The notes under the pieces: generated by a model | Database searches by the model: none | What the model saw: only the letters and a program-made list of their open reading frames with translations | Told to the model about the DNA's origin: nothing | Position numbers and translations under genes: made by a program | Source: Bifidobacterium pseudocatenulatum DSM 20438 = JCM 1200 = LMG 10505 | Lineage (GTDB): Bacteria > Actinomycetota > Actinomycetes > Actinomycetales > Bifidobacteriaceae | Length of the DNA stretch: 64,000 nucleotides | Reading direction: 5' to 3' | Assembly (NCBI RefSeq): GCF_001025215.1 | Contig: NZ_AP012330.1 | Span: 1,922,001-1,986,000 of the forward strand | Shown: positions 1 through 51,950 of the stretch, in pieces | Numbering within the stretch: position 1 is the stretch's first letter | Layout of the letters: each line of letters opens with the position of its first letter

Positions 1-1521
1 GCGCAGCAGGGCCGGCCACTGGGCGAGCGCGGCAAGCACTTCGCCGTCGGCGGCGGTGTCGAGCAGGCTCACGTCGGCACCCTCGTAGGTGATGCCGGCA
101 GCAGCCGCATTGCGATCCACATTGCAGGAGCGGGCGTGCGCGTACTGCACGTAGTACACCGGATTCTCGTTGGAATGCGAAGCGAGCAGGTTCAGGTCGA
201 TGTCGACCGGGGAATTGTAGTCGGTGCGTGCCAACGAATAACGGGAGGCATCCACGCCGATAGCGTCGGTCAGATCGTCGATGGTCACCACATTGCCGGC
301 GCGCTTCGACATGCGCACTGCCTTGCCGTCCTTCAGCACGTTGACGAGCTGGCCGATAAGAATCTGCATGTTTTCGCCAGGTTCGTCGCCGAATGCGGCG
401 CACATGGCCATCATGCGGCCGATATAGCCGTGATGGTCGGCACCCAGCATGTAAATGGCGATGTCTGCCGGATCGTTGTCACGATGACGCTTGTTGCGAT
501 AGTAAGCAATATCAGCTGCGAAATACGCGTAGTTGCCGTCGGACTTGATAATCACACGATCCTTGTCGTCACCATGCTTGGTGGATTCGAACCAGGTTGC
601 GCCATCCTTTTCGTAAATGTCGCCGCGTTCACGCAGATCGGCGATCGCCTTGTCGACTTCACCATCGGAATACAAGCTGTTCTCATGGAACCACACGTCG
701 AAATTCACACGGAAATCCTTCATGGATTTGCGGATTTCGTCGAACATCATCGGCACTGCACGCTTGCGGAATTCCTCACGCTGTTCGGAATCGCCCTCAC
801 CCAGCGGATTGCCATCGTTGTCAACGCCACCGTCGACGCGCGGCAGGTCGAGAATCGCAATACCGTCGGCATTTGCCTCATCGATGACGCGACGTGCGAT
901 CTCATCGATATAAGCGCCCTTGTAACCGTCGATCGGGGTTTCCTCACCGTGGGCGGCCGCGACCAGCGACTTGGCGAAACGGTTGATCTGCTCGCCGTGA
1001 TCGTTGAAATAGTATTCGCGCACCACCTTGGCGCCGTTCGCCTCAAGCACGCGGGCCATGGAGTCGCCGACCGCGGCCCAACGGGTGCCGCCGATATGGA
1101 TCGGACCGGTCGGATTGGCGGACACGAATTCAAGATTCAGGGTCTTGCCGGAAAGATGGTCGTTCTTGCCGTAGTTCGCACCCTCGTTAAGCACAGTGTC
1201 AACCACGGCTGCGGCGGACGCGGAATCAAGCACAATGTTAATGAAGCCGGGGCCGGCCACTTCCACGGACTTGATGCCATCGGCATTGGCGAGTTCCGCG
1301 GCGAACAGTTCGGCGAAATCGTGAGGCTTCATGCCGGCCTTCTTGGCCAGCTGCATGGCCGCGTTCGACGCCCAATCGCCGTGCGCGCGGTCCTTCGGAC
1401 GCATGACGGCGAATTTGGCCTGCGGAGGGATGAGATCGGTGGTCAGGGTGCCTGCCTTGCCTTCATTCACAAGGTTGTTGGCAATATTGAAAATCAGTTC
1501 ACTAAGCGCTTCTGGACTCAT
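1..1521 (-). CDS. argS: Arginyl-tRNA synthetase, C-terminus cut by window edge
   Basis: Class I aminoacyl-tRNA synthetase that charges tRNA-Arg in the cytoplasm. The visible 507 residues begin MSPEALSEL and carry the N-terminal additional domain, the HIGH-type signature in SANPTGPIHIGG and a KMSKS-type loop VRMSKRAGN. The reading frame runs off the window, so the anticodon-binding C-terminus is missing only because of the edge. The ATG at 1521 follows a TAGACT box (1529-1534) after 7 nt. An SD-like GGAGGA touches the start codon and is too close for normal use, which suggests a leaderless transcript of its own. It lies 31 bp downstream of the permease gene on the same strand, so read-through is also possible. 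Confidence 0.97.
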   Translation of the reverse strand, partial: MSPEALSELIFNIANNLVNEGKAGTLTTDLIPPQAKFAVMRPKDRAHGDWASNAAMQLAKKAGMKPHDFAELFAAELANADGIKSVEVAGPGFINIVLDSASAAAVVDTVLNEGANYGKNDHLSGKTLNLEFVSANPTGPIHIGGTRWAAVGDSMARVLEANGAKVVREYYFNDHGEQINRFAKSLVAAAHGEETPIDGYKGAYIDEIARRVIDEANADGIAILDLPRVDGGVDNDGNPLGEGDSEQREEFRKRAVPMMFDEIRKSMKDFRVNFDVWFHENSLYSDGEVDKAIADLRERGDIYEKDGATWFESTKHGDDKDRVIIKSDGNYAYFAADIAYYRNKRHRDNDPADIAIYMLGADHHGYIGRMMAMCAAFGDEPGENMQILIGQLVNVLKDGKAVRMSKRAGNVVTIDDLTDAIGVDASRYSLARTDYNSPVDIDLNLLASHSNENPVYYVQYAHARSCNVDRNAAAAGITYEGADVSLLDTAADGEVLAALAQWPALLR

Positions 1522-1552
1522 TCCTCCAAGTCTACCGATTATGCAGACAGAA

Positions 1553-3022
1553 TCAGCCTTGCGTATCGCCCCGCGTATCATCCTGCAGTTCGCCATGCTT
1601 CCTGCGCCAAGCCACCGAAGCGTAATAGCCGATATAGCAGATCGCAACGAACGGAATCATATACAGCAATGTGGAACGCTGCGACGAATCGCAAATCACC
1701 AAAACCAACGCGCCGATGCACATCACAATCGCAGCAATCGGCACGAACGGGAAACCGGGGGCACGATACTTCAAATCGTCAGCCGAATGCCCTTGATCAA
1801 GCCACTGCTTGCGGAAACGCAAGTGGCAGACGGAAACCGACGCCCACACCACCAGTGTGGCCAAGCCGGAAACCGCAACCAACGCCAAATACACCGTCGA
1901 AGCGGCAACCACGGAAGACAACAACGCCAACAGCGATCCAGCCATGCTGAACAGCACCGCGAACACGGGCACACCATGGAAATTCGTCTTGCCGAGCACG
2001 CGCGGGATCATACCCTCCTGCGCAAGCGACCAGACCATGCGCGAGCACACGTACAAGCCGGAATTCGCAGCGGAAAGCACTGCCGTCAACACCACGAAAT
2101 TCATCACATCGCCGGCAAACGGCATGCCGATCGACTGGAACACGAGCACAAACGGACTCGTGTCGACGCCTGACCGATGCCACGGAATCAGCGCGGACAT
2201 CACCGCAATCGAACCGATGAAAAAAATCGCAAGACGCAACACCGTGGTATGCACGGCCTTCGGAATCGCCTGCGCCGGATCCTTCGTCTCCCCCGCCGCG
2301 ACACCAACAACCTCAGTGCCCGAAAATGCGAACACCACCGTCAGCAGCGTCGAAAAAATCGGCAGCACACCATTGGGGAACCAGCCGTCATTATAGAAAT
2401 TCTCAAACAGCGGTGCGTGATCGTAACCGGCAATCGGAATCGCACCAAACATGGCAAGCAAGCCGATCACAATGAACACGATAATCGCAAACACCTTAAT
2501 GGATGCGAACCAGAATTCCGACTCGCCATACAGCCTCACCGACAGAATATTGAGCATGAACACCACCGCAATGAAGGCGGCGGACCAAATCCACGCGGGC
2601 GAATCAGGAAACCAACGTTGCATCAGCAGACCGGCTGCCGTGAATTCCGAAGCGAGCGCCACCGCCCAATTCAGCCAATACAGCACGGCGATGGTGAACG
2701 CGGTGCCGGGGCCGATGAAACGCTTCGCATACAGGTGAAAGCTGCCCGCATACGGCATGGCCACCGACAGTTCGCCAAGGCTGAGCATCACAAAATACAC
2801 AAGCATGGATCCGATGCCATACGCGATGATCGCGCCAAGAGGGCCGGCTTGGTGAATCGTGTAGCCGGAGCTGAGGAACAAGCCCGTACCGATCACACCA
2901 CCTAGCGAAATCATGGTCAGATGGCGGGTTTCCATCTTGCGTTCAAGACCGCCCTGCTTGGCTTCAGCGGATTCAGCGGCGTCAGTGTCTGCAGTGGATG
3001 CGTTGACTTGCGATTCGGCCAT
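1553..3022 (-). CDS. APC-family amino-acid permease
   Basis: Integral membrane amino-acid:proton symporter of the AAT/APC superfamily, 489 aa with about 12 hydrophobic segments. The N-terminal soluble stretch is followed by the family signature around MISLGGVIGTGLFL, typical of the GABA/aromatic/basic amino-acid permease subgroup; the substrate cannot be read from sequence. The ATG at 3022 is preferred because AAGGAG lies 9 nt upstream; the frame is open further upstream to 3157 but without a comparable start. Its 3' end is 31 bp from argS on the same strand. Confidence 0.9.
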   Translation of the reverse strand: MAESQVNASTADTDAAESAEAKQGGLERKMETRHLTMISLGGVIGTGLFLSSGYTIHQAGPLGAIIAYGIGSMLVYFVMLSLGELSVAMPYAGSFHLYAKRFIGPGTAFTIAVLYWLNWAVALASEFTAAGLLMQRWFPDSPAWIWSAAFIAVVFMLNILSVRLYGESEFWFASIKVFAIIVFIVIGLLAMFGAIPIAGYDHAPLFENFYNDGWFPNGVLPIFSTLLTVVFAFSGTEVVGVAAGETKDPAQAIPKAVHTTVLRLAIFFIGSIAVMSALIPWHRSGVDTSPFVLVFQSIGMPFAGDVMNFVVLTAVLSAANSGLYVCSRMVWSLAQEGMIPRVLGKTNFHGVPVFAVLFSMAGSLLALLSSVVAASTVYLALVAVSGLATLVVWASVSVCHLRFRKQWLDQGHSADDLKYRAPGFPFVPIAAIVMCIGALVLVICDSSQRSTLLYMIPFVAICYIGYYASVAWRRKHGELQDDTRGDTQG

Positions 3023-3886: not shown

Positions 3887-4128
3887 GTGCGTCAAACTAC
3901 TTTACACTGCCTTGAGATGAAAGCGACACTTTTTACGGAAAAACGATCTTCGAATCTCGGATCATTATTGCGAAAACATAGCTACGGCGGGTCTTTCGAC
4001 AGCACACCCAACCCTAGAGGGGAAATAACGGGCATAGAACGGGGAAGGAACGAGAGATAGCGTGCGCCACAACGAAATTTGTAGCAACATAACACCATTT
4101 GAAGCGTCTTTTCCACTAAACTGAAAAT

Positions 4129-8165: not shown

Positions 8166-8246
8166 AGCATTCACTATTCTACATTGCCTCTCTGCAAAAG
8201 CCTGAAAAAACTATGAAAATCAATGATTGCCACTAAAGTGGAACCT

Positions 8247-9967: not shown

Positions 9968-10050
9968 GAGGCACTACCCTACCATGATTGTCGTAAGCCA
10001 TGAATCCCACGATATGTACAATCCTATTTTTGTTTTGATTAATCTTTTTT

Positions 10051-25239: not shown

Positions 25240-25245
25240 TATAAT
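25240..25245 (+). promoter_or_regulatory. -10 box of glgE
   Basis: A perfect TATAAT ends 7 nt before the glgE ATG, placing the transcription start at or next to the A of the start codon. No convincing -35 hexamer at 16-18 bp. Confidence 0.7.
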
Positions 25246-28467: not shown

Positions 28468-28632
28468 TATAGTGGAACACGTAATTCACGGCATGCGAAC
28501 AGTATTCGCAGAATTCAAAGCCCGCTGGCTGGCGCGGCAGTTCTATGTCGGTACCCCTAGGCGTAGGCGGACGTGAGACTCCGTCGAGGCCCATCCCGTG
28601 GGAAACCGGCGGGATGAACCTATATACCAGCT
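28468..28632 (+). promoter_or_regulatory. Possible structured leader and promoters of mntP
   Basis: A TATAGT box (28468-28473) could start a leader of about 150 nt containing hairpins GCGAA/TTCGC (28495-28509) and ATCCCG/CGGGAT (28593-28615). A second box, TATATA (28621-28626), lies 6 nt before the mntP ATG and would give a leaderless mRNA. The classical Mn riboswitch (yybP-ykoY) motifs GGGGAGUAG and AGACC-type loop are not seen. Confidence 0.4.
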
Positions 28633-31102: not shown

Positions 31103-31185
31103 TGCCACGATACTTGCGATCTGACTGTCGGCTATCTCACTTTCGTACGCGCGATTGCATATTCATGCGACGGTAGACTGGTGCC

Positions 31186-31851
31186 ATGCCCCGGGAATCG
31201 AAACAAGCGCGACTGTCACGCATGCATCAGGAATACGCCGTATTGTGCGAGGAGATTCCGCATCCGAAATGCGCGCTGAATTTTTCAAACCCGTTTGAGC
31301 TGCTGGTGGCGACCGTGCTAAGCGCGCAAACCACCGACAAACGCGTGAATATGGTCACACCGGAATTATTCGGCGAATATCCGGGACCGGCCGCACTTGC
31401 GAGCGCCAATCCCGAACACGTGGAAAGCATCATTCATTCCATCGGATTTCATCATACGAAGGCAAAGAACATCATCGGACTTTCTTACGCATTGTGCGAA
31501 CGGTTCGACGGCGAGGTGCCGCAAACCATGGATGCTTTGACAAGTCTGCCCGGGGTCGGGCGCAAAACCGCGAACGTGGTGCTTGGCAATGCTTTTGGCG
31601 TGCCGGGATTCCCTGTCGACACGCATGTGATCCGTGTGACCGGGCGGCTGCGCTGGCGTTCGGACTGGGCGAGCGGCTCCCCCGACCCCAAAGCCATCGA
31701 ACGAGAGATCACCGCCTGCTTCCCGCCCGAAGAGTGGACGGACCTGTCTCACAGGCTGATATTGCATGGTCGTGCCATATGCCATGCGCGCAAGCCCGAC
31801 TGCCTCAACTGCCCCCTTAACGACACCTGTCCGAGCGCATTCGCAGCGTAA
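31186..31851 (+). CDS. nth: Endonuclease III
   Basis: A 221-aa base-excision repair glycosylase/AP lyase acting on oxidised pyrimidines. The helix-hairpin-helix LPGVGRKTANV carries catalytic Lys127, and Asp145 lies in VDTHVIRV. The [4Fe-4S] ligands Cys199, Cys206, Cys209 and Cys215 follow the C-X6-C-X2-C-X5-C pattern. A TAGACT box (31174-31179) ends 6 nt before the ATG with no SD, which implies leaderless translation. Confidence 0.96.
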   Translation: MPRESKQARLSRMHQEYAVLCEEIPHPKCALNFSNPFELLVATVLSAQTTDKRVNMVTPELFGEYPGPAALASANPEHVESIIHSIGFHHTKAKNIIGLSYALCERFDGEVPQTMDALTSLPGVGRKTANVVLGNAFGVPGFPVDTHVIRVTGRLRWRSDWASGSPDPKAIEREITACFPPEEWTDLSHRLILHGRAICHARKPDCLNCPLNDTCPSAFAA

Positions 31852-31893
31852 CGCGCATGCCCGCTGTAGCCTGTGCCAACTAGACTCAGCACC

Positions 31894-33456
31894 ATGGAAG
31901 ACACCATGGAAGAAGAAAACGGGCGGGAAGCCAAGCTGAAAGCCGAAATCACGCGATGGCTGATCTTTTTCGGCGTCGCCATCATGCTCAGCGTCATGAC
32001 CTGGCTGGGCTGGTCGCTGACGAACCGCAAAAATCCGATTACCTCCTTCACCACGCTCGTTTCCGACTCCTCCGTGGCCATCGGCATTCAGGGCAGCGCG
32101 CCGGAATCGCTCGACATCCGCACCGAACAGGGCACCGCGCTGGAGCAGGCGCTGCTCGAAAACGTGTACGAAACCCTGGTGTCACGCAGCGAAACCAACA
32201 AACTGCAGCCGTCAATCGCGAAATCATGGCAGATTTCCGACGACGGACTGACCTACACGTTCACGCTCAACAGCAACATGACCTTCGCCAACGGACACAA
32301 GCTCGACTCGTCCGACGTGGTCTGGTCGCTGCAAAACGTCATCAACAACAATTACGTGGGATCCGACCAACTTGGTAGTCTCAAGGAAATCACCAATCCC
32401 GACGAAAAAACGGTGGTCATCACCCTCAATCAGCCGAATCCGTGCCTTCTGCGCGCGTTGAGCGGGCGTGCCGGCATTGTTTACGATGAGGAAAGCACGG
32501 CGAATTACGGCAAGAAAGCCGTGGGATCGGGACCGTTCACCGTGGAAGCCTCGTCGAAAACACAGATCGTGCTGCAGCGCAACGACTCGTATTGGGGCAC
32601 CAAAGCCGCCGCATCGCAAATAACGCTGTATTACTACGCTTCCGAAGATTCGCTGGTCAGCGCCATGGAAGCCAAGAAAATCAGCATGGCATTGCCGTTG
32701 AGCGCGTCTGCCGCCGATGAGCTCAACCAGCAAAGCGGCATCAACTCCGACAGCGGCATCAGCTTCGACAAAGTGATGCTCGCCTTCAATAACGGCACCG
32801 AAAGCCCGTTCTCCGACGAGCAGATCCGCAAAATGACGAGATACGCCATCGACGCGCAGACCATCGCCAAAGACGCTCCGGACGCCTATTCGCCGCTCGG
32901 AGGCCCGATAAGCCCGCTGGAAGACGGGTATGAGGATCTGAGCGAACTGTTCCCCTACAATCTTGAGCAGGGCCAGCAGATGCGCAGCTATTTCGGCGCA
33001 TACTATATCGCCGATATCGATCTGCTGGTGCCCAAGGAATATGAGCAGATCGGCAACACCGTGAAATCGGCGATCGAACAGCTCAATATCGGCGTCAATC
33101 TGGAAGTGCTCGATTCCGCGGCGCAAGTCACGGAACGCATGAACGCGGGCACCTACAATATCGCGCTCACCACCATGAGCGGCGAAAACGATGCGAGCGT
33201 ATTCACCGACGGCCAGAGCGTGTTCCATTATGAGAACGGCGATGTGCAGCAGGCATATGCGGACGCGATGGCGGCCACCAATGATGACGATTATCAGGCA
33301 CGCATGCGCACGTATGCACGCGCCGTCAGCGAAAACGCGGCAAGCGACTGGCTGTACACGCGCAAGAATTTCATGGCGGTAAGCGACCAATTGCAGGGAT
33401 ATCCGAAAAATCTGACCGACCGTCTGCTGCCGTTGAGCAGAGTGAAGTTGCAGTGA
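31894..33456 (+). CDS. Membrane-anchored SBP family 5 solute-binding protein
   Basis: A 520-aa extracytoplasmic solute-binding protein of the dipeptide/oligopeptide (SBP_bac_5) class. The fold signature is present: LLENVYETLVSRSETNKLQPSIAKSW (in part), TFTLNSNMTFANGHKLDSSDVVWSL and VGSGPFTV. In place of a lipobox it has an uncleaved transmembrane segment at about residues 21-43. No ABC permease or ATPase genes are adjacent, so it either serves a distant transporter or acts alone. ATG 31894 follows TAGACT (31881-31886) after 7 nt; an upstream in-frame GTG (31873) lies before that box. Confidence 0.85.
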   Translation: MEDTMEEENGREAKLKAEITRWLIFFGVAIMLSVMTWLGWSLTNRKNPITSFTTLVSDSSVAIGIQGSAPESLDIRTEQGTALEQALLENVYETLVSRSETNKLQPSIAKSWQISDDGLTYTFTLNSNMTFANGHKLDSSDVVWSLQNVINNNYVGSDQLGSLKEITNPDEKTVVITLNQPNPCLLRALSGRAGIVYDEESTANYGKKAVGSGPFTVEASSKTQIVLQRNDSYWGTKAAASQITLYYYASEDSLVSAMEAKKISMALPLSASAADELNQQSGINSDSGISFDKVMLAFNNGTESPFSDEQIRKMTRYAIDAQTIAKDAPDAYSPLGGPISPLEDGYEDLSELFPYNLEQGQQMRSYFGAYYIADIDLLVPKEYEQIGNTVKSAIEQLNIGVNLEVLDSAAQVTERMNAGTYNIALTTMSGENDASVFTDGQSVFHYENGDVQQAYADAMAATNDDDYQARMRTYARAVSENAASDWLYTRKNFMAVSDQLQGYPKNLTDRLLPLSRVKLQ

Positions 33457-33584
33457 TTTTCCCGCGATTGTCAATCAATCGCCGAACACTGCGGACAATC
33501 CGTGTGTTGCGCTGATTTTCTTGCGATTTCGGCATTCGGCTGCAGTTCCGTAAGTTGTCACATTCGCTTTCTAGACTAGCGTTT

Positions 33585-36371
33585 ATGACTGAAAGCCAAG
33601 ATAATACCATCAACGCGAACCTCACGCCGCTGCCCGACAAGGTCGGCGTGGACGGTCTCGAAGACAAGTGGCGCGAAGTCTGGGACGAAAGCGAAGTCTA
33701 CAAGTTCCAGGGCACCCGCGACCGCAAGGCCGTGTATTCCATCGATACCCCGCCGCCCACCGTTTCCGGCCACCTGCACGTGGGCCACGTGTTCTCGTAC
33801 ACGCATACCGATGTGATCGCGCGATTCAAGCGCATGAACGGCTACGACGTGTTCTACCCGATGGGCTGGGATGACAACGGCCTGCCAACCGAACGCCGTG
33901 TGCAGAACTATTACGGCGTGCGTGTGGACACCTCCCTCAAGTACGATCCTGATTTCGTGCCGCCGTTCGAAGGCACCGATGGCAAGAAGATCGACGCCAA
34001 GGATCAGGTTCCGATCTCCCGTAAGAACTTCATCGAACTGTGCGAGAAGCTCACCGCCCAGGATGAGAAGCAGTTCGAGGCGCTGTGGCGTTCCCTCGGC
34101 CTGTCCATCGACTGGACGCAGACCTACCACACCATCGGCGAGCACCCGCAGCGCGTGGCCCAGAAGGCGTTCCTGCGCAATCTGGCCCGCGGCGAAGCGT
34201 ATCAGAAAGACGCTCCGGGCCTGTGGGATGTGACCTTCCAGACCGCAGTGGCCCAGGCCGAGCTGGAATCCCGCGAATATCCGGGCTTCTACCACAAGGT
34301 GGCGTTCCGCTTCGAAGACGGCACTCCGATCTACATCGAAACCACCCGTCCGGAACTGCTGGCAGCCTGCGGCGCACTGATCGCGCACCCGGATGACGAG
34401 CGTTACAAGCCGTATTTCGGCCAGTACGTCTACTCCCCGCTGTTCCACGTGAAGGTGCCGATTCTGGCGCACAAGGCCGCGGAAATGGACAAGGGCGCAG
34501 GTATCGCCATGTGCTGTACGTTCGGTGACGTGACCGACGTTGAGTGGTGGCGTGATCTGAACCTGCCGCTGCGTTCCATCATCCAGCGCAACGGACGCAT
34601 CGTGATGGACACCCCGGACTGGATCGAAGACGAGGAAGGCAAGCGCATCTTCCAGGAAACCGCCGGCAAGACGACATTCTCCGCACGCAAGATCATCGTC
34701 GACGCACTGCGCGAATCCGGCGATCTTGACGGCGAACCGACTCCGACCAAGCGTATGACGAACTTCTACGAGAAGGGTGACAAGCCGCTCGAAATCGTCA
34801 CTTCCCGCCAGTGGTACCTCAAGAACGGCGGCACCGATCAGAAGCTGAACGCCGAACTGATCGAACGCGGTCGCGAACTGAACTTCCATCCTGATTTCAT
34901 GCGCGTGCGTTACGAAAACTGGGTGAACGGCCTGAATGGCGATTGGCTGATCTCCCGTCAGCGCTTCTTCGGCGTGCCGTTCCCGCTGTGGTATCCGGTG
35001 AAGGAAGATGGCACCGCCGATTACGATCATCCGATCGTGCCGAGCGAGGACCGCCTGCCGATCGATCCGACCGACGATGTGCCGGAAGGCTACAGCGAGG
35101 ACCAGCGCGACGTGCCCGGTGGCTTCACCGCCGAACCTGACATCATGGATACGTGGGCGACCTCGTCGCTCACCCCGCAGATCGTGACCCGCTGGGAAGA
35201 GCCAGGCGAAGAGAACCAGGCGATTTTCAACGCCACCTTCCCGATGGATCTGCGTCCGCAGGGTCAGGACATCATCCGCACCTGGCTGTTCTCCACCGTG
35301 GATCGCGCGCATCTCGAGAACAAGTGTCTGCCGTGGGCCAATGCCACCCTGTCTGGATGGATTCTTGATCCGGATCACAAGAAGATGTCGAAGTCCAAGG
35401 GCAACGTAGTTGTGCCAGACAAGCCGATCAAGCAGTTCGGCGCCGACGCGGTGCGTTATTGGGCCGCTGCGGCACGTTTGGGCCTGGATGCCACCTACGA
35501 CGAAGGCCAGATGAAGATCGGCCGCCGTTTGGCCATCAAGCTGCTCAACGCCACCAAGTTCGCACTGGCCATCGGCCGTGAGGATGAGAACCACCATGTG
35601 GGCGCTCCGGCAACCGCAAGCTGGAACCCTGCCGACGTGACCGAGCCGCTGGACCGCGCAGCCATGGCCAAGATGGCCCTCGTAGTGCGCGAAGCCACCG
35701 AAAGCCTCAACAACTACGAGCATTCCAAGGCTTTGGAAGTCATCGAAAACTACTTCTGGCAGTTCTGCGACGATTACATCGAGCTGGTCAAGAACCGTGC
35801 ATACGGCACCGCAGACTCCACCGGCCATGTGCCGAGCGAGAAGGCCGTGAAGTCCGCTCGCACCGCGCTGGGACTGGGCTTGGATGCCTTCGCACGCCTG
35901 CTGGCACCGTACCTGCCGTACGCCACCGAAGAAGTGTGGAGCTGGATGCATGAGGGCGAAGGCTCCGTGCACCACGCCGCATGGCCGAAGGCTGAAACGT
36001 ACGATGCGGCCGCAGCAGCCGTCTCCCCGGAGCTGCTCACCCATGCCGGTGAAGCTCTGGCCGCGCTGCGTGGCATCAAGTCGAAGGCCAAGGTTTCAAT
36101 GAAGACCCCGATCCTTTCCGTGCAGCTGGGCGTTTCCGATGAAGCGCGCGAATCCATCGAAAGCGCATTGGGCGATATCGCCGAGGCCGGTCGCGTGGTC
36201 GGACGCATCTCCTTCATGGGAGCGGCCGCCGCACTGAAGGCCGTCAAGGAAACCGCCGAAGCAGCCAAGGAAGCCGTCAAGGAGGCCAAGGCTGATGCCG
36301 AAGCCGCCATCGACGTGATTGTGGCCGACAGCGAACTTGGAGAGCCGCCGGCTAAAAAGCCGAAGAACTAA
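33585..36371 (+). CDS. valS: Valyl-tRNA synthetase
   Basis: A 928-aa class I synthetase that charges tRNA-Val and edits mischarged Thr. Motifs: HIGH as HLHVGH (63-68) within PPPTVSGHLHVGHVFSY, GWDDNGLPTE, and KMSKS at 600-604. The Val/Ile-type editing domain lies between. The C-terminal coiled coil is Ala/Glu/Lys-rich and ends in PPAKKPKN. TAGACT (33572-33577) lies 7 nt before the ATG and there is no SD. The 3' end overlaps a short duplicated sequence (see repeat at 36347-36476). Confidence 0.97.
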   Translation: MTESQDNTINANLTPLPDKVGVDGLEDKWREVWDESEVYKFQGTRDRKAVYSIDTPPPTVSGHLHVGHVFSYTHTDVIARFKRMNGYDVFYPMGWDDNGLPTERRVQNYYGVRVDTSLKYDPDFVPPFEGTDGKKIDAKDQVPISRKNFIELCEKLTAQDEKQFEALWRSLGLSIDWTQTYHTIGEHPQRVAQKAFLRNLARGEAYQKDAPGLWDVTFQTAVAQAELESREYPGFYHKVAFRFEDGTPIYIETTRPELLAACGALIAHPDDERYKPYFGQYVYSPLFHVKVPILAHKAAEMDKGAGIAMCCTFGDVTDVEWWRDLNLPLRSIIQRNGRIVMDTPDWIEDEEGKRIFQETAGKTTFSARKIIVDALRESGDLDGEPTPTKRMTNFYEKGDKPLEIVTSRQWYLKNGGTDQKLNAELIERGRELNFHPDFMRVRYENWVNGLNGDWLISRQRFFGVPFPLWYPVKEDGTADYDHPIVPSEDRLPIDPTDDVPEGYSEDQRDVPGGFTAEPDIMDTWATSSLTPQIVTRWEEPGEENQAIFNATFPMDLRPQGQDIIRTWLFSTVDRAHLENKCLPWANATLSGWILDPDHKKMSKSKGNVVVPDKPIKQFGADAVRYWAAAARLGLDATYDEGQMKIGRRLAIKLLNATKFALAIGREDENHHVGAPATASWNPADVTEPLDRAAMAKMALVVREATESLNNYEHSKALEVIENYFWQFCDDYIELVKNRAYGTADSTGHVPSEKAVKSARTALGLGLDAFARLLAPYLPYATEEVWSWMHEGEGSVHHAAWPKAETYDAAAAAVSPELLTHAGEALAALRGIKSKAKVSMKTPILSVQLGVSDEARESIESALGDIAEAGRVVGRISFMGAAAALKAVKETAEAAKEAVKEAKADAEAAIDVIVADSELGEPPAKKPKN

Positions 36372-39185: not shown

Positions 39186-39209
39186 GCGTACAAGACTACC
39201 GCGCGCATG

Positions 39210-49527: not shown

Positions 49528-49629
49528 GTCCCTAACATTAACGCGTCTGTGTGACGAGCGCCCGCCCATTTCGTCTCGCCCCGCAACCACGTCACACCGG
49601 CATTGCCGGCACGCCCCGCACAGTCCAAA

Positions 49630-51844: not shown

Positions 51845-51950
51845 AGTCCCAGCCTACCGTTTCTACTCGTCAAAAGAGTGACAGTGTTGGTGTCAACAAG
51901 CAACGTCCAATATCTCCCATCAACAGATGGTCAACAGAAAATCAACATTT

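Follow-up and report, generated by a model that had tools for sequence, protein, structure and literature searches.

Conserved TANNNT boxes at predicted leaderless starts in Bifidobacterium, and a candidate −26-type element upstream of a subset

The window analysed here is a stretch of 64,000 nt from Bifidobacterium pseudocatenulatum (NZ_AP012330.1), and all coordinates below are positions within it. At three of its genes, nth, SBP and valS, the hexamer TAGACT lies 6–7 nt before the ATG, as a first-pass annotation had stated and as the coordinates confirm. This layout raises the question of whether the box marks a promoter from which transcription begins at the start codon itself. The same annotation extended the layout to 14 named genes. 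We find a TANNNT box with its first T at −12 to −14 in 11 of them (Table 1), whereas the near-start sequences of metA (CATAAT), mntP (TATATA) and rmuC (TTATAT/TATATA) hold no true TANNNT.

We propose that transcription of the box genes would start at the A of the ATG, from the TANNNT box acting as a −10 element. An mRNA from such a promoter would have no 5′ UTR, so its translation would necessarily proceed without a Shine-Dalgarno (SD) sequence. What is recognised would be TANNNT together with a G-rich discriminator, and a −35 hexamer at the customary 16–18 bp would be lacking. A subset, comprising valS, gatC and the PRT-like gene in the window and the CNNM, GuaB3 and PepO-like genes elsewhere, would add a TTGWC-like element 11 bp upstream of the −10 box. 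As a whole, we consider this explanation highly probable. What we computed directly is that the boxes are enriched, stand in a fixed register and are conserved, and that the start codon shows a pyrimidine/A signature; from these results we infer transcription beginning at the start codon and leaderless translation of these mRNAs.

Table 1. Boxes, candidate −26-type elements and the mntP leader, by position in the window
Feature	Sequence	Position	Strand	Placement	Gene match
nth box	TAGACT	31174..31179	+	6 nt before ATG 31186	TIGR01083
SBP (SBP_bac_5) box	TAGACT	31881..31886	+	7 nt before ATG 31894	PF00496
valS box	TAGACT	33572..33577	+	7 nt before ATG 33585	NF000540 valine--tRNA ligase
argS box	TAGACT	1529..1534	-	7 nt before ATG 1521	TIGR00456
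CYTH-like gene box	TAAACT	4117..4122	+	6 nt before ATG 4129	no Pfam or NCBIfam match; first-pass name unconfirmed
FKBP gene box	TAAAGT	8234..8239	+	7 nt before ATG 8247	PF00254
nucS box	TAGGGT	9976..9981	-	8 nt before GTG 9967	NF002876
"glgE" box	TATAAT	25240..25245	+	7 nt before ATG 25253	weak alpha-amylase-type matches only; putative first-pass name, unconfirmed
Chorismate mutase (CM) box	TAGTCT	39193..39198	-	7 nt before ATG 39185	PF01817, NF006691
gatC box	TAATGT	49535..49540	-	7 nt before ATG 49527	TIGR00135
PRT-like gene box	TAGGCT	51851..51856	-	6 nt before ATG 51844	no Pfam or NCBIfam match; first-pass name unconfirmed
valS −26-type element	TTGTCA	33555..33560	+	spacer 11 bp to box
gatC −26-type element	TCGTCA	49552..49557	-	spacer 11 bp to box
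PRT-like gene −26-type element	TTGACG	51868..51873	-	spacer 11 bp to box
mntP leader		28483..28632	+	conserved block ending in hairpin, then GATGAACC 12 nt before ATG 28633

Box enrichment at gene starts

Gene starts were taken from our own caller and not from the annotation. A first sample, the window together with 400 kb of its genome, gave 298 genes. Of these, 24 have the first T of a box at −12 to −14, where 300 shuffles averaged 6.5 (sd 2.6) and never exceeded 17. Adding another 400 kb raised the count to 39 of 526 genes, compared with 9.4 in shifted windows, and the enrichment over shifted controls anticipated at the first pass is present in the sampled 37% of the genome. In three other Bifidobacterium species, which as relatives are not independent samples, we counted 25/265, 14/254 and 22/220 against controls of 3.2, 3.6 and 3.0. 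The peak at −12 to −14 is common to all four species. The net box frequency is about 6% with these motif-blind starts and about 10% when any start candidate is allowed.

Box enrichment might be an artefact of start-codon choice or of composition, as the starts are predicted and a backwards control is as high as the TAGACT-N6,7-ATG pattern (16 in the genome versus 13). This latter comparison also led us to reject TAGACT as a special hexamer. On the other hand, upstream sequence played no part in choosing the starts, both the offsets adjoining −12 to −14 and the shuffles are flat, and the orthologues agree. We regard such an artefact as very improbable.

Conservation of the box and signature of the start codon

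Of the 14 genes listed, 8 to 10 keep the box at a fixed distance across their orthologues. It is present in all orthologues of argS (22/22), gatC (20/20), FKBP (13/13) and nucS (12/12), and in most of those of valS (47/48), CM (29/34), the CYTH-like gene (10/13) and SBP (33/48). Part of the orthologues carry it for the PRT-like gene (12/20) and "glgE" (12/31). It is rare or absent for nth (7/47, at −11 to −15), metA (2/19), rmuC (0/17) and mntP (0/31), and of 256 orthologues of the window's 14 SD-type genes, 3 carry it. With a box in so few orthologues, that of nth is a recent or local trait at best; a plasmid search with the nth–SBP region gave no match. Since the box is conserved at a fixed distance, there is good support, as a sequence-based prediction, for leaderless initiation from a −10 box at valS, argS, gatC, FKBP, nucS, CM, the CYTH-like gene and SBP, and weaker support at the PRT-like gene and "glgE". 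A leaderless start of metA or rmuC is not supported. For mntP we reject it: in place of a box, its orthologues have in common a conserved leader about 145 nt long, and this leader came near the gathering score of no family in Rfam 15.

As a class, too, the box genes fit leaderless initiation, by their scarce strong SDs, their position at operon heads, their ATG preference and the pyrimidine at −1. Taking a duplex energy of −6 or lower as a strong SD, we find one in 1 of 24 box genes versus 126 of the 274 others in the 298-gene sample. Over 1265 genes the figures are 8/100 and 482/1165 (p 1e-12), and the contrast is not significant in one of the four species (G039; 3/14 versus 89/240). Within the same 1265 genes, box genes more often have a pyrimidine at −1 (92/100 versus 707/1165) and an ATG start (96/100 versus 932/1165), and a same-strand neighbour less than 20 nt away is found for 1/100 of them versus 149/1165. 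The scarcity of strong SDs and the −1 pyrimidine are what a transcription start at the A of the ATG would lead one to expect.

The first-pass annotation had described two well-separated classes of genes and, from these, two initiation modes. What stands is that strong SDs are rare among box genes and that a leaderless mode is supported for most of the listed genes. Since 148 of the 298 genes have neither a box nor a strong SD at the called start, the starts fall into three classes (box, SD, neither) instead of two. In argS, a listed box gene, a GGAGG ends 1 nt before the ATG.

This third class, half of all genes, speaks for another reading of the data: the boxes would serve internal or secondary promoters as −10 elements, and the principal mRNAs would begin further upstream, with leaders that went unrecognised. 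mntP, one of the listed genes, does carry a conserved leader, and argS starts 31 nt behind an upstream ORF, where read-through is possible. Weak SD-like matches of at least 4 letters occur in the orthologues of several box genes (CM 18/34, nth 20/47, PRT-like 10/20, FKBP 8/13, nucS 8/12). Matches of at least 6 letters, in contrast, occur in no more than 3 orthologues for each of the 11 box genes, versus 108 of 256 for the SD-type genes. The fixed box-to-start distance across the genus, together with the −1 pyrimidine, the ATG preference and the scarce strong SDs, makes secondary promoters an unlikely explanation, and we retain initiation at the start codon.

A second element 11 bp upstream of the box

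Among leadered candidates, the spacer between the two promoter elements peaks at 17 bp (36 pairs, versus 5 to 25 at other spacings). The leaderless candidates show no excess of a usual −35 at spacers of 16–18 bp; their peak lies at 11 bp (11 pairs, versus 0 to 3). Across 61 genomes, TTGWC-N12-TANNNT-N6-8-ATG occurs 304 times, against 153 for the backwards pattern, and the TTGWC pair gives 161 and 148 as spacing controls at 13 bp and 17 bp. A scan of all the DNA sampled, whether at starts or not, showed no excess of the spacer-11 pair; we therefore rejected it as a general feature of the DNA, and it is tied to leaderless starts.

We scored the element as at least 4 of the 6 letters of TTGWCA at spacer 11, over distinct box-bearing upstreams. 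It is present in 43/45 upstreams of valS, 20/20 of gatC (which also score at spacer 9 in 15/20) and 11/12 of the PRT-like gene. Elsewhere in the genome, three genes picked because their own copy had the element give 17/19 (CNNM), 15/20 (GuaB3) and 26/29 (PepO-like, own copy included). The 11 bp register is constant even where the box-to-ATG distance differs by one or two bases. At argS a similar element stands at spacer 10 (14/21). For FKBP, AAATCA lies at −17 to −12 from the box in 12/13 orthologues. The spacer-11 element was first noticed by eye in the first sample; in the second sample of the same genome it occurs (at least 4 matches) in 1/15, with 0.7 expected, and in another species in 2/14.

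The sequence of the element varies between genes. Exact TTGWC is found in 26/41 upstreams of valS, 8/12 of the PRT-like gene and 12/19 of CNNM, and in none of gatC (0/19) or GuaB3 (0/20), whose upstreams have GTC as their common core. An open-access literature search of limited scope found no published description of a −26 element in Bifidobacterium. Within that scope, this predicted −26-type element of the leaderless promoters appears to be new; its sequence match is weak.

Candidate reader and known systems

The TTGWC-like element would correspond to the ‘−26’ position. In mycobacteria, PafBC is described as reading this position and adapting sigma-A to promoters without a −35 (PMC5656591, PMC11804915), and the motif given for PafBC / RecA-NDp promoters is tTGTCRgtg-8 nt-TannnT (PMC5656591). 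The two share the spacing, with 12 nt between TTGTC and TANNNT. The Bifidobacterium element is looser: it is TTGWC-like and usually carries C or T at the position of the motif's g. Directly after the hexamer, the base is C or T for 19/19 upstreams of gatC, 36/41 of valS, 17/20 of GuaB3 and 17/19 of CNNM, and G in 0/19, 4/41, 3/20 and 0/19, respectively, and in 5/12 of the PRT-like gene. The element does not match the full core tTGTCRgtg. Among the matches listed for other families of the order, 69 of 115 strings have TTGTCRG.

Across the genus, a fused PafBC-like protein is widely found. Fused PafBC proteins are characterised by two HTH-WYL-WCX units; in this one, a single WYL and a single WCX were recognised, each within the C-terminal half. 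Roughly the first 108 residues are close to invariant among 38 homologues aligned. A WYL model matches in 33 of 61 genus genomes, and the full-length protein also appears to be present in two (G004, G025) where this model finds none. In the genome studied here the WYL model has no match, and the fused gene has none in the 37% examined; going by the coordinates in relatives, it would lie some 30 kb past guaB3, near 1.12 Mb. For the 638-aa Bifidobacterium protein, which has no sequence match in the PDB, the best fold match to a low-confidence model (pLDDT 55.9) is PDB 6sj9, the fused PafBC of Arthrobacter aurescens. Foldseek ranks it first (E 3.4e-10, probability 1.00), over an alignment of 728 columns with gaps at 16% identity, a TM-score of 0.22 and an rmsd of 25.7; the next matches are other WYL regulators (DriD, E 6.5e-8).

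We infer that the PafBC-like protein may read the −26 element. We tentatively speculate, with doubt prevailing, that it reads a diverged −26 element and drives a standing leaderless set, a DNA-damage sigma adapter turned housekeeping activator. Such a set would have valS, gatC, the PepO-like peptidase, the CNNM transporter and GuaB3 among its members.

A rival with a considerable chance, if somewhat short of even, is that the element is read by another sigma-A-adapting factor or directly by RNA polymerase. It would suit the failure of the WYL model to find a protein in the genome studied, an element that lacks the GTG of tTGTCRgtg (the PRT-like gene, with its G in 5/12, differs), and element-bearing genes that are not DNA-repair genes; the AfsR mechanism, moreover, is reported to resemble sigma adaptation (PMC11804915). 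Against it stand the spacing identical to that of the published PafBC motif, the apparent presence of the full-length protein in two genomes that the WYL model leaves blank, and the near-invariant N-terminal residues. WhiA was considered as a reader because TGTC is the complement of GACA, and was rejected, since its motif (GACAC) does not fit the TTGAC variants and no consistent orientation is reported for it (PMC3781837).

Leaderless genes are already known in Actinobacteria, including Bifidobacterium. Of 89 actinobacterial genomes, 86 are reported to have TA-led genes, which make up around 20% of genes (Zheng et al., 2011, PMC3160421). They share with this genome a TANNNT about 12 bp before the start, and the box frequency here is lower. 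As described, that classification looked at the 20 bp preceding the start, a span that does not reach an element located further upstream. Cappable-seq of Bifidobacterium pseudolongum is reported to place 15% of start sites at gene starts, with 174 high-confidence positions (Ettwiller et al., 2016, PMC4782308); this is the same genus, but another species, in data from a mouse gut community. With leaderless genes of Bifidobacterium known, the boxes described here contribute a gene list that is well conserved. The extra element suggests that some of these promoters rely on a −26 element instead of a −35, and start-site choice and gene control in the genus may then hinge on a sigma adapter hitherto studied as a DNA-damage switch. 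Unlike PafBC / RecA-NDp promoters, those with the Bifidobacterium element belong to housekeeping genes and not to DNA-repair genes.

The box and the two modes of initiation

The first-pass annotation had described a recurrent TANNNT box, a -10-like hexamer, shortly before the start codon of 14 genes. As it claimed, TAGACT precedes nth, the SBP_bac_5 gene (SBP) and valS, lying 6, 7 and 7 nt 5′ of ATG. The first T of the box falls at -12 to -14 in 11 of the 14 genes, but the layout does not extend to metA, mntP and rmuC. Family searches confirmed argS, valS and gatC, as well as nth and nucS (NCBIfam) and the SBP_bac_5, FKBP and chorismate mutase (CM) families (Pfam). Matches of metA and rmuC to their own families fell below cut-off; mntP had an NCBIfam match below the curated cut-off and a PF02659 match. 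The gene named glgE gave only weak alpha-amylase-type matches, and the CYTH-like and PRT-like proteins had no match in Pfam or NCBIfam. The nth protein is 97% identical to that of Bifidobacterium sp. N4G05 and 96% to that of B. catenulatum subsp. kashiwanohense.

Positions of the features discussed
Feature	Sequence	Position	Strand	Observation
Window	Own genome (2,313,752 bases)	1922001-1986000
argS	Window	1521	-	GGAGG 1 nt 5′ of ATG, directly after the box; SD-like matches of at least 4 letters in 3/22 orthologues
FKBP	Window	8247	+	AAATCA upstream, where valS has TTGTCA
mntP leader	Window	28483-28632	+	Conserved, about 145 nt, upstream of mntP
nth	Window	31186	+	Start GTG, not ATG, in the two nearest relatives (L029, L030); TAGACT still 6 nt away
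Fused PafBC-like frame	L302 (fetched locus)	4-1920	+	WYL and WCX domains, both in the C-terminal half

Starts were picked by a gene caller using coding potential and start codon alone, blind to upstream sequence. In the first sample (298 genes from the window and twenty 20-kb stretches of its genome), the first T lay at -12 to -14 in 24 genes, against 6.5 in dinucleotide shuffles, and 85 of 6717 internal in-frame ATG/GTG codons carried the box. With 20 further stretches of the same genome, the box preceded 39 of 526 genes versus 9.4 in shifted windows, which bears out the proposed enrichment. Three other species, with 20 stretches each, gave 25/265, 14/254 and 22/220 (shifted-window controls 3.2, 3.6 and 3.0). 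When any in-frame ATG/GTG candidate was allowed, the box was found in 53 of 296 genes versus 20–27 in seven shifted windows, which puts the true share of box genes at roughly 10%. Within the window the blind count is higher, at 7 of 43 called genes.

Among 1265 genes of the four species, 100 of them with a box, a strong Shine-Dalgarno sequence (SD; duplex energy -6 or lower) preceded 8/100 box genes and 482/1165 others; the contrast was not significant in G039, one of the four species, alone (3/14 vs 89/240). Strong SDs are thus rare in box genes, as expected of the two well-separated classes first proposed, but 683 of the 1265 lack both signals where the start was called, in part because the calls are imprecise. 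Box genes more often start with ATG (96/100 vs 932/1165) and seldom lie within 20 nt of a same-strand neighbour (1/100 vs 149/1165). A pyrimidine occupies -1 in 92/100 box genes versus 707/1165 others, which is the usual pyrimidine/purine transcription-start signature, with the A of the start codon as its purine. Immediately 3′ of the box, the first two positions favour G (0.51, 0.68), which fits a sigma-70 discriminator.

Conservation among orthologues

Orthologues were found by tblastn (45 of 80 nth loci, L029-L072 and L079, and 20 argS and 20 gatC stretches), with some species counted twice, and the box was counted at -11 to -15. It is kept in argS (22/22), gatC (20/20), FKBP (13/13), nucS (12/12) and valS (47/48), and also in CM (29/34), CYTH (10/13), SBP (33/48), PRT (12/20) and glgE (12/31). 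It is scarce or absent in nth (7/47), metA (2/19), mntP (0/31) and rmuC (0/17); four shifted control windows held 0–4 boxes each. SD-like matches of at least 4 letters are rare in valS (1/48), gatC (2/20), argS (3/22) and CYTH (2/13) and frequent in nth (20/47), CM (18/34), PRT (10/20), FKBP (8/13) and nucS (8/12); each box gene has 0 to 3 orthologues with a match of at least 6 letters. For comparison, 16 SD-type genes were tried, of which gatA and gatB had no orthologue in the loci; the remaining 14 (256 rows) have a box in 3 rows, at least 4 SD letters in 241 and at least 6 in 108. About ten of the listed genes thus have a box architecture that is old and under selection; at nth it is a local trait, and mntP, metA and rmuC lack it.

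The mntP leader alignment comprises the window copy and those from 18 out of 30 loci in relatives, leaving out 3 near-duplicates and 9 with the 3′ part only. It ends in a variable hairpin and GATGAACC, 11–16 nt 5′ of most starts. Of 23 pairs found by RNAalifold, 6 vary on both sides, but the covariation term is small (-0.49); a search of Rfam 15 returned no family near gathering score. The leader is possibly a new regulatory RNA of the manganese exporter.

A second element upstream of the box

At the spacing usual for a -35, box genes show no hexamer, and leadered upstream regions peak at the usual 17 bp (36 pairs). TTGTCA/TTGACA at 11 bp from the box was first spotted in the first sample. Scored on TTGWCA, this spacer-11 element reaches at least 4 matches in 23 of 100 box genes (6.7 expected) and at least 5 in 11 (1.2 expected). 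Without the discovery sample it is present in 17/76 (p 9e-6 against 6.7%), and in 15/74 (p 1e-4) when two orthologues of own-genome hits are also removed. The second own-genome sample alone showed no excess (1/15), and one other species gave 2/14. Across 61 Bifidobacterium genomes, the full pattern TTGWC-N12-TANNNT-N6-8-ATG occurs 304 times versus 153 backwards, some strings among the matches listed looking coding; control spacings gave 161 (135 backwards) at 13 bp and 148 (125 backwards) at 17 bp.

The element recurs in distinct box-bearing upstreams of valS (43/45), gatC (20/20) and PRT (11/12). The same holds for CNNM (17/19), GuaB3 (15/20) and PepO-like (26/29), genes selected because the own copy carried the element. 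These upstreams cover 20, 20 and 30 of the 61 genomes, respectively, and the box is missing in 1/20 CNNM and 1/30 PepO-like upstreams. The element is loose. Exact TTGWC, counted with a shorter upstream cut that leaves fewer distinct rows, is found in valS 26/41, PRT 8/12, CNNM 12/19, gatC 0/19 and GuaB3 0/20. The gatC upstreams also score at spacer 9 (15/20), and 14 of 21 argS upstreams carry a similar element, at spacer 10. In 12 of 13 FKBP orthologues another block, AAATCA, takes the place of TTGTCA, so another factor may act there. Orthologue alignments of CM, SBP, nucS, CYTH and glgE contain no conserved element of this kind.

A PafBC-like candidate reader and known systems

A WYL model matched 33 of 61 genus genomes, 24 of them with a frame of 626–675 aa, as exemplified in L302. 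A DEAD-box helicase gene follows this frame; in mycobacteria, helY lies near pafBC. The structure model of the L302 protein is of low confidence (pLDDT 55.9); its top Foldseek match is the fused PafBC of Arthrobacter (E 3.4e-10, TM 0.22), with other WYL regulators, DriD among them (6.5e-8), ranked lower. A PDB sequence search with the protein gave no match. Its homologues are 76–93% identical (38 aligned) across Bifidobacterium and Gardnerella. Homologue records P0106, P0092 and P0049 were taken to correspond to genomes G004, G025 and G052. The WYL model found no match in the own genome, a result that is uninformative because it also failed to detect the protein in G004 and G025. Among the homologues (P0001-P0150), a protein of ~640 aa is widespread in the genus, its N-terminal region nearly invariant, and is named in the records inspected as a WYL, helix-turn-helix or YafY-like regulator or as hypothetical. 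It looks like a fused PafBC, and we infer that it may read the spacer-11, -26-type element.

Leaderless TA-led genes in Actinobacteria (PMC3160421) and leaderless transcripts in Bifidobacterium (PMC4782308) have been reported. Literature searches, mostly short of full text, did not find a -26-type element at conserved housekeeping genes of Bifidobacterium; pending experiment, we regard it as new in form, though of a known kind.

In 110 genomes from other families of the order, the full pattern occurs 259 times versus 46 backwards, and TTGTCRG begins 69 of 115 strings among the matches listed. Such strings are the published PafBC/RecA-NDp motif, tTGTCRgtg - 8 nt - TannnT (PMC5656591). In mycobacteria, PafB reads the -26 motif and PafC holds domain 4 of sigma-A (PMC11804915). 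In these other families (G061-G176), TTGTCGGTG/TTGTCGGAG-type -26 promoters were observed at leaderless distance from ATG, the most in any one genome being 21 (G109; control 0). Judging by sequence, PafBC-type promoters may commonly be leaderless. Compared with the PafBC/RecA-NDp motif, the Bifidobacterium element keeps the geometry but lacks the GTG, and the six element-bearing gene families include no DNA-repair genes.
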